Shown: one piece after another, positions 1 through 758 of the stretch
How the letters are laid out: the number at the start of each line of letters is the position of its first letter
Numbering within the stretch: position 1 is the stretch's first letter
Assembly: GCF_001294535.1 (NCBI RefSeq)
Contig: NZ_LGIC01000091.1
Coordinates: 1 to 64,000, forward strand
Direction of reading: 5' to 3'
DNA length: 64,000 bases
Source of the DNA: Cypionkella psychrotolerans
GTDB taxonomy: Bacteria > Pseudomonadota > Alphaproteobacteria > Rhodobacterales > Rhodobacteraceae
Translations under genes and position numbers: made by a program
The notes under the pieces: model-generated
Database searches by the model: none
What the model was told of the DNA's origin: nothing
Seen by the model: only the letters and a program-made list of their open reading frames with translations

Positions 1-201
1 CGGTCTTCATATCCTCGACCGTCGCGCGCTTGCGCCACTTCGCCACCGTCTTGGGGTTGATGCCCAGTCCTCGGCTCAGCTGCGCGAGCGAAGCTTGTGA
101 TCGCTGTATTGCGGCTCTGACGGCGTGCGCCTCTCGGCGAATGCATGCATTCACCCGCCGGGCAACGGGATCGTGGCGCTCCCGGGACAAACCTGTCCCA
201 T
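1..201 (-). pseudogene. IS481-type transposase, N-terminal fragment, interrupted
   Basis: Read on the minus strand from the ATG at 201, the first residues are MGQV..GSAT. After a break, the frame encodes HAVRAAIQRSQASLAQLSRG followed by LGINPKTVAKWRKRATVEDM. This matches the helix-turn-helix N-terminus of IS481-family transposases as I know them. The fragment runs off the left edge of the window, so its far end is unknown. The early part is broken by a ~40 bp palindromic insert at 130-169 that adds an in-frame stop (TGA), so this copy should be inactive. The family call rests on remembered family sequence, not on a search. Confidence 0.75.
130..169. repeat. ~40 bp palindromic element, copy 1
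   Basis: The ends are CCTCTCGGCG and GCCGGGCAACGGG. The centre (139-152, GAATGCATGCATTC) is a perfect palindrome flanked by CGGCG and CGCCG, so the whole unit can form a hairpin. It sits inside the IS481 transposase fragment and interrupts its reading frame. A second copy with the same ends but a different palindromic centre lies at 530-567 in another transposase gene. Confidence 0.8.
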
Positions 202-234
202 GTTGCTTCCTTCCATGCCTGAGAAAGGATCGCA

Positions 235-758
235 CCATCAAACCGTGGAATCAAACAAAGACGCTCTACAACCGCTGGAAGCGGTGGAGCGAGATGGGGG
301 GGCTTCGCCCGGATCATGGAGGGCCTCGCGTCCGAGGCTGCGGAACGCAAGACCACCATGATCGATGCGACCTATCTGAAAGCGCACCGCACGGCCTCCA
401 GCCTGCGCGTGAAAAAGGGGGGCGCGGACGGGCCACCGGGCGCACGAAAGGGGGGCTGAACACCAAGAGCTCCATGCCATCGCCGATGCCAAGGGACGGC
501 CGTTGAAGTTCTTCATGACCGCAGGCGACCCTCTCGGCGATGCAAGCATCGCCTGCCGGGCAACGGGTCAGCGATTACAGCAGGTGCTGCGGCCCTGCTG
601 GGCCACATGCCGAAGGCAGAGTGACTTCTGGCCGACCGAGGGTATGACGCGGATTGGTATCGAGAAGCTTTGAAAGACAAAGGGATACGGGTTTGCATCC
701 CTGGCAGCAAGAGCCGCAGGAAGAAAGTCCGCTTCGACCGCCGCCGCTACAAACGACG
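235..758 (+). pseudogene. IS5-family (IS427-like) transposase remnant
   Basis: Pieces of a DDE transposase appear in all three frames. They read YNRWKRWSEMG near 270, RIMEGLASEAAERKTTMIDA and TYLKAHRTASSLRVKKG at 312-420, GRTKGGLNTK near 437-470, DAKGRPLKFFMTAG near 487-525, and GYDADWYREALKDKGI then RRKKVRFDRRRYKRR at 643-757. The gene has several frameshifts, a Trp-to-stop change near 620 (TGACTT where the family has TGG), and a ~40 bp palindromic insert at 530-567. It ends abruptly at 758 where an IS3-type left end begins, so the last part of the transposase is missing. It is certainly non-functional. Confidence 0.8.
530..567. repeat. ~40 bp palindromic element, copy 2
   Basis: This copy has the same ends as copy 1 (CCTCTCGGCG ... 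GCCGGGCAACGGG). Its central hairpin is different but equally perfect: GGCGATGC (536-543), AA, GCATCGCC (546-553). It lies inside the IS5-type transposase where the family normally reads TAG-QVSDY, so it splits a conserved stretch. That two copies keep the hairpin while changing its bases argues that the fold matters. Confidence 0.8.

Follow-up and report, generated by a model that had tools for sequence, protein, structure and literature searches.

Two palindromic inserts in transposase gene remnants

The window, by which we mean the whole stretch of 64,000 nucleotides analysed (positions 1 to 64,000 of contig NZ_LGIC01000091.1 of Cypionkella psychrotolerans), begins with the remnants of two transposase genes, each interrupted by a copy of the same small palindromic element:

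1 to 201, minus strand: host 1, a truncated IS481-type transposase gene with its ATG at 201-199, broken by copy 1
130 to 168, plus strand: copy 1 of the element, with the hairpin GAATGCATGCATTC; 3' boundary given to +/- one base; empty homologues L103 and L260
258 to 795, plus strand: host 2, the remnant of an IS5-type (ISPaes2-like) transposase gene, disrupted by copy 2 as well as by other indels
529 to 565, plus strand: copy 2 of the element, 37 nt, with the hairpin GGCGATGC-AA-GCATCGCC; empty homologues in ISPaes2 (L102) and Ruegeria pomeroyi (L101)

The letters at 130-169 read CCTCTCGGCG-AATGCATGCATTCACCC-GCCGGGCAACGGG and those at 530-567 read CCTCTCGGCG-ATGCAAGCATCGCCT-GCCGGGCAACGGG, so that the common ends and the two different palindromic centres described in the initial annotation are present as stated. 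Both ends separated by a gap of 12-20 bases were found twice in the window and in none of 100 dinucleotide shuffles. Homologues without the insert agree that these are two copies of one palindromic insert of about 40 bp in dead IS481 and IS5 genes, and set the boundaries slightly off those first proposed, at approximately 130-168 and 529-565. The insert-free homologue of copy 1 (L260) matches part of the NCBIfam IS481 model at 80 bits (full-length cut-off 224), and the homologue at copy 2 is annotated as an IS5-like ISPaes2 transposase. Both coding stretches are indeed broken, since copy 1 turns codon 17 of the IS481 frame into a stop and the 37 bases of copy 2 shift the frame of an IS5 gene that has further indels. 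Compared with its sister copies (L002, L003, L012, L015 and L023), copy 1 lacks two 5' C. At gathering score, Rfam recognised only a tRNA in the whole window and nothing at the element. By eye, an open frame at 863-1087 resembles the first part of an IS3-type transposase, adding to the IS481 and IS5 remnants and turning the window's first kilobase into an IS graveyard.

Insertion sites and junctions

For 71 of 163 distinct copies, flank-joined queries recovered empty homologous sites, from which the insertion rule is SSC^(CCCTCTCGG-variable hairpin-CTGCCGGGCARYG)^GAYG, without duplication of the target. Among the comparisons listed, this was base-exact in IstB (L038 versus L123, L203 and L060), in IS3 orfA (L024 versus L032) and in L203, L073, L183 and L052, all of which read SSC^(CCCTCTCGG...GCARYG)^GAYG with no base duplicated or lost. 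The comparison with insert-free genes that had been proposed as a check therefore defined the inserted bases, and the clean cases were free of target duplication. In L060, L218, L129 and window copy 1 the left edge was off by one or two bases, and no clean junction was obtained for L001 and L047, both of the CTCACGG type.

Overall, 109 distinct junction clusters shared the same ends, a cluster comprising copies that end in CAAYG and whose stem has 5 bp or more; the ends CTCNCGG and CCGGGCAAYG, present in all 109, were selected by the search pattern. C preceded the element in 93 clusters and G followed it in 107, with A at +2 in 65 and Y (T or C) at +3 in 87, and the combination C^GAY occurred at 57 of the 109 junctions versus 1.2% of background positions. 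Read on the opposite strand, CATC (31) or CGTC (18) stands before the element in 49 of 109 clusters, and this CRTC flank is already there in the empty sites. Both window copies lie at less typical targets, copy 2 at A^GGT. Insert lengths were mostly 41 bases (n = 45), followed by 43 (n = 19), 37 (n = 13), 39 (n = 11) and 45 (n = 10).

The first three target bases were alike for GGC- and GGG-type stems and did not track the arm, while among copies with a CAA end the fourth was G in 54 of 80 GGC-type versus 5 of 19 GGG-type stems. Guide pairing of the variable arm with the target, considered because GGC^GAT resembles the stem base, was rejected, as GGG-type stems also use ^GAY, against their own arm. 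Serine, tyrosine and IS110 recombinases leave a shared core repeated at both junctions; they were rejected because no such core is present in the clean cases.

Hairpin structure

The commonest architecture, found in 62 of 140 distinct sequences, combines a stem of 9-11 pairs with a 3-base loop and a single extrahelical A that follows the third pair. A further 16 sequences form a class that has no bulge and whose loop is shorter; the remainder are imperfect or irregular by a simple rule. Stems of the well-formed classes start with GG, are 8-11 bp long and enclose loops of 2-3 bases. Across 56 distinct 41-mers, 95.8% of pair cells were paired (maximum of 79.0% in 500 shuffles; 32-42% when the partner was slid as a control) and 76 two-sided changes were counted versus a shuffle maximum of 34, while the 16 extra pair types did not rise above the shuffle maximum of 16. 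Single copies folded as DNA with weak to moderate stability (z of -0.5, -2.0, -1.7 and -1.6). The compensating changes reported for the two window copies are therefore borne out on a larger set, and comparison among copies shows that the palindrome is kept while the stem changes by compensation and the ends stay fixed. Since related copies can exceed shuffles, and the arms could match through snap-back correction rather than selection, this covariation shows that the palindrome is kept and not why.

Distribution among genomes

Of the 295 genomes sampled from the bacterial family, 65 contained the pattern CCTCTCGG-N10-34-CTGCCGGGCARYG, compared with a single match, in 1 genome of the 295, for the reversed pattern used as a control, so that the proposed search of related genomes for the ends did recover further copies; among the matches listed, the family sequences were by eye palindromic almost throughout. 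In a class-wide sample of 289 genomes, the pattern was confined to 3 of the 4 family members; none of the 285 genomes from other alphaproteobacterial families had it. A one-genome-per-species scan returned at least 117 stretches, of which the 80 listed carry titles that are nearly all from Rhodobacterales (e.g. Leisingera, Sulfitobacter, Roseovarius and Tateyamaria), three of the same 80 saying only Alphaproteobacteria and five lying outside alphaproteobacteria. These five (L108, L113, L146, L173 and L178) have no stem longer than 4 bp and were discarded as chance matches. With one consensus query, 66 of 72,556 plasmid records matched, the 60 listed coming from genera that we take to be Rhodobacterales, whereas 0 of 50,697 phage records did. 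We call the bearer family Rhodobacteraceae-type, a label taken from the genus names of the matches. At seven loci (L037, L056, L061, L120, L132, L134 and L147) the surroundings of the element are alike and seemingly intergenic, with other GC-rich inverted repeats on either side, for example ..GCCAGCCC..GGGCTGGCCC directly before the element in the L037 group, possibly a composite unit common to several genomes.

At least 16 copies reside in the own genome, 15 from a looser pattern and one with a CAGCG end. The looser pattern matched 23 places, from which 7 of an unrelated repeat (CTCACGGGCCAAAGCATCCGGGCAA) and 1 without a palindrome (L009) were dropped. Eleven of the 16 lie less than 1 kb from a contig end, as is expected for repeats inside multi-copy IS. 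The copy-1 junction occurs six times in this genome and the copy-2 junction twice, so both have also spread with their hosts, in line with the earlier suggestion that the element spreads with IS as well as inserting into them. A local CTCACGG-type subfamily, CTCACGGTTTGC..GCAAACC.TTGCCGGGCAACGG, is found at four different sites of the own genome (L001, L007, L014 and L022), which suggests a recent burst, and also in L047. In genome G146, copies L064, L075 and L076 share similar downstream sequence (..gtttatttagcaa.atgaa..) and may be part of a longer repeat.

Host genes of the copies

Host genes were assigned for the first 37 of 42 eligible copies from the loci of the one-genome-per-species scan, taken one per locus with already represented junctions dropped, by scanning for each copy one stop-free fragment touching the junction, picked by length and codon-position GC (two fragments for L110, L143 and L196; for L198, the second-ranked fragment replaced the first). 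Of these copies, 27 lie in genes for transposases (n = 25) or tyrosine recombinases/integrases (n = 2; L157 and L177), three of the 27 (L143, L175 and L198) scoring under the Pfam cut-off. No other recognised kind of gene appeared among the 37, save general ATPase models overlapping IstB, and the remaining 10 gave no match and no recognisable host gene. By their Pfam names, the host types include IS3/IS481, IS5, IS21, IS66, IS110 and IS256. Of the 31 families at junction positions, the 25 listed are mobile-element families, save ATPase and general helix-turn-helix models; of the 54 at random control positions in the same loci, the 25 listed are ordinary cellular families together with T4SS-DNA_transf, a conjugation family, and DUF772, a transposase domain. 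Survival bias can explain part of this preference, as IS are dispensable and carry copies onward. One copy, L224 (G127:C121), lies near an intact IS200-type TnpA gene on an IS-dense contig, a closeness that is probably due to chance.

Repeated use of sites and mobility

For 23 copies, both an occupied and an empty homologue could be compared. At seven of these sites (L013, L033, L038, L082, L109, L183 and L216) the nearest relative lacks the insert although a more distant one carries it at the identical nucleotide, whilst at the other 16 the closest homologue is filled. The nucleotide at which copy 2 is inserted is filled by another centre in L013. In L129, a single IS481 gene carries a pair of elements, of which one occupies the position of window copy 1 and the other a site that is unoccupied in the window. 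Filled sites beside empty closest relatives are most simply read as independent insertions, although they could reflect precise loss. With the 109 distinct junctions, the empty sites and the compensating stem changes, these comparisons support the original proposal of a tiny non-autonomous palindrome that inserts into IS, and they give good support to the view that the family is real and has moved.

We favour, with moderate confidence, a family of mobile hairpins that are non-autonomous, measure 37-45 bp in most cases and were found in our samples only in the Rhodobacteraceae-type family; an enzyme would move them in trans, and IS would then carry them. The movement is well supported by these comparisons, while the enzyme and its single-strand mechanism are what we infer. 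The enzyme would recognise one strand as a folded hairpin with fixed ends and, in about half of the distinct sequences, an extrahelical base; the folded hairpin would be excised as single-stranded DNA and joined 3' of CRTC on that strand, by analogy with the use of a hairpin and a target tetranucleotide in IS200/IS605. This enzyme would differ from the usual RAYT of the bearer family, and copies that land in IS genes would then be carried by the IS to new sites and genomes, which would partly account for the predominance of IS among the hosts tested.

The hairpins might instead have been mobile long ago and now be passive passengers, spread only through transposing IS, with the IS preference reflecting survival bias. 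Copies of multi-copy IS do share a junction, as in the six own-genome copies at the copy-1 junction and in four copies of G287 (L050, L070, L072 and L074), and insertions in ordinary genes would be purged. The number of distinct junctions, the filling of orthologous sites with different centres though the closest homologue is empty, and the occurrence of the local CTCACGG..TTGCCGGGCAACGG subfamily at four distinct places in one genome all argue against passive spread alone, which we consider rather unlikely.

Search for the mobilizing enzyme

In the 1.1 Mb of DNA searched, we recognised no larger element bounded by these ends. With strict patterns, 38 of the 5' ends and 47 of the 3' ends in the same DNA remained unpaired; judged by eye, nearly all of them either had a variant or degenerate partner close by or were chance matches, and 5' ends in L046, L128, L178 and L196 had no visible partner.

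The own genome encodes one RAYT (NF047646, 140 bits), the class of enzyme for which the initial annotation had suggested a search. Pfam PF01797 proved misleading as a detector, matching the own genome at 22 bits and 31 of 295 genomes although NCBIfam calls the gene a clear RAYT. With the own protein as query, homologues were found in 97 of 295 family genomes, leaving the conclusion of the PF01797 test unchanged: 26 of 65 bearers versus 71 of 230 other genomes had a match (p = 0.18), and 39 of 65 bearers had none, a count to be read with the caution that a single-sequence query can miss divergent RAYTs. Reading of the 20 best RAYT loci (approximately 3.4 kb each) revealed 0 copies of the element, six of them holding only 4-mismatch matches without a palindrome that were judged by eye to be chance. 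Beyond the span covered by these loci, a RAYT of genome G184 (G184:C58:2270-2689) does lie 1.9 kb from a copy on the same contig. Two of three RAYT loci examined (L242 and L245) contain other, GTAG-tagged repeats, GGTGCGTG..CACGCACC, which were absent from the own RAYT locus (L240). These GTAG-tagged palindromes (L242, 1371-1475 and 1993-2016; L245, 1955-2130) constitute a separate REP family.

A standard REP moved by a RAYT would share with our element its size, its hairpin, the frequent extrahelical base and the missing target duplication, and RAYT genes are available in the own genome and in the family, once close to a copy. Unlike GTAG REPs and their RAYTs (REPtrons), the element shows no GTAG consensus in its flanks across the 109 junctions, and it is not found beside the RAYTs examined, some of which have GTAG-tagged repeats of their own. 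Given this, and the bearers with no RAYT match, we regard this explanation as very unlikely; the suggested link is not borne out at the loci examined, even though the genome has the gene. The description as REP/MITE-like is thus retained in part: the element is REP-like in form, is not a RAYT-type REP by these tests, and is not a classical MITE, as no target duplication was seen. REP-like but not RAYT-type is the best reading.

Other HUH genes were more frequent in bearers. Y1 Pfam matches occurred in 12 of 65 bearers versus 19 of 230 other genomes (p = 0.02), and IS91 (PF04986), which matched 28 of the 295 genomes and had no match in the own genome, in 11 of 65 versus 17 of 230 (p = 0.03). 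Any HUH gene (RAYT, Y1 or IS91) was present in 39 of 65 bearers versus 94 of 230 others (p = 0.007), an excess that may simply reflect bearers being richer in mobile DNA and that would also fit an HUH enzyme acting earlier or from another genome, yet 26 of the 65 bearers have none of the three.

Comparison with known systems and implications

Transposition of IS200/IS605 involves a hairpin with an extrahelical base, makes no duplication and uses a short target tetranucleotide. The present hairpins resemble it in each of these features and differ in having one hairpin rather than two ends and in the conservation of both flanks, conserved bases on both sides of the cut being unusual for a target of this type; in addition, 53 of 65 bearer genomes have no Y1 Pfam match.

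A conventional MITE of a DDE insertion sequence is highly improbable, for although the ends match weakly by eye (CCCT.CTCGGC versus CRYTGCCCGGC reversed), clean empty sites show no target-site duplication, the 1.1 Mb searched held no recognisable full-length element with these ends, and the centre covaries. Just as improbable is an insert tolerated by an active host gene, through in-frame read-through or ribosome bypass: many inserts do lie between codons of the longest open frame, the 39- and 45-base forms keep frame and some hosts are long and open (for example L140, with 401 and 304 open codons in the longest open frames on either side of the insert), but of the 53 inserts flanked by 60 or more open codons on both sides, 44 have a length not divisible by three, the consensus has no matching take-off and landing codon, and the GAY target would account for a codon-edge position. 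The same 44 inserts set our mobile hairpins apart from Rickettsia palindromic elements (RPE), which are likewise palindromic inserts within genes and are reported in frame in ORFs likely to encode functional proteins (PMC3733652).

The nearest described group, set beside our mobile hairpins by description only, comprises the CGTC-tagged REPs, with which they have in common small covarying palindromes, a mainly alphaproteobacterial range and the lack of a known transposase. As portrayed in the 2013 survey, these are small palindromes with compensating stem changes, found mainly in alphaproteobacteria and with no dedicated transposase known (PMC3733652, Di Nocera et al. 2013). Their CGTC (or TGTC, CCTC) tag is described there as the repeat end, tails fit CCA, stems of 8-9 bp almost invariably have A-T pairs first and loops of 4-5 bases, head-to-head dimers prevail, locations are mostly intergenic, and the end of the abstract leaves open what moves them (PMC3733652). 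Compared with these REPs, the CRTC flank of our element pre-exists at the target and is not part of the repeat, stems start with G-C and enclose smaller loops, close pairs are rare (four within 150 bp among 198 pattern matches, with overlapping loci counted more than once), and most copies tested lie in transposase or integrase genes. Topic searches of openly licensed PMC papers yielded no description of the present repeat, and six short strings of its end sequence retrieved one unrelated paper containing one of them, so that the family is undescribed as far as searched.

A more speculative and, in our view, improbable extension is that the element is a hyperparasite of IS with its own single-strand transposition enzyme, neither RAYT, TnpA nor IS91; that, by preferring transposase genes, the element serves as a natural brake on IS; and that the CGTC tag of the transposase-less alphaproteobacterial REPs lies outside the repeat, being the tetranucleotide (CRTC) which enzymes of this same class target. 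If true, this reading of the tag would unite the present element with the CGTC REPs. Transposase-less REPs are an open problem, to which this family brings base-exact empty sites, a clear target and sites seen both with and without the insert, and the 26 bearer genomes without the three HUH families make the search for the enzyme concrete. Small hairpins here occur in IS genes far more often than at random positions, the opposite of the case in which IS insert into REPs, which is reportedly the subject of one study. The element also explains frame breaks in the transposase genes of these bacteria.
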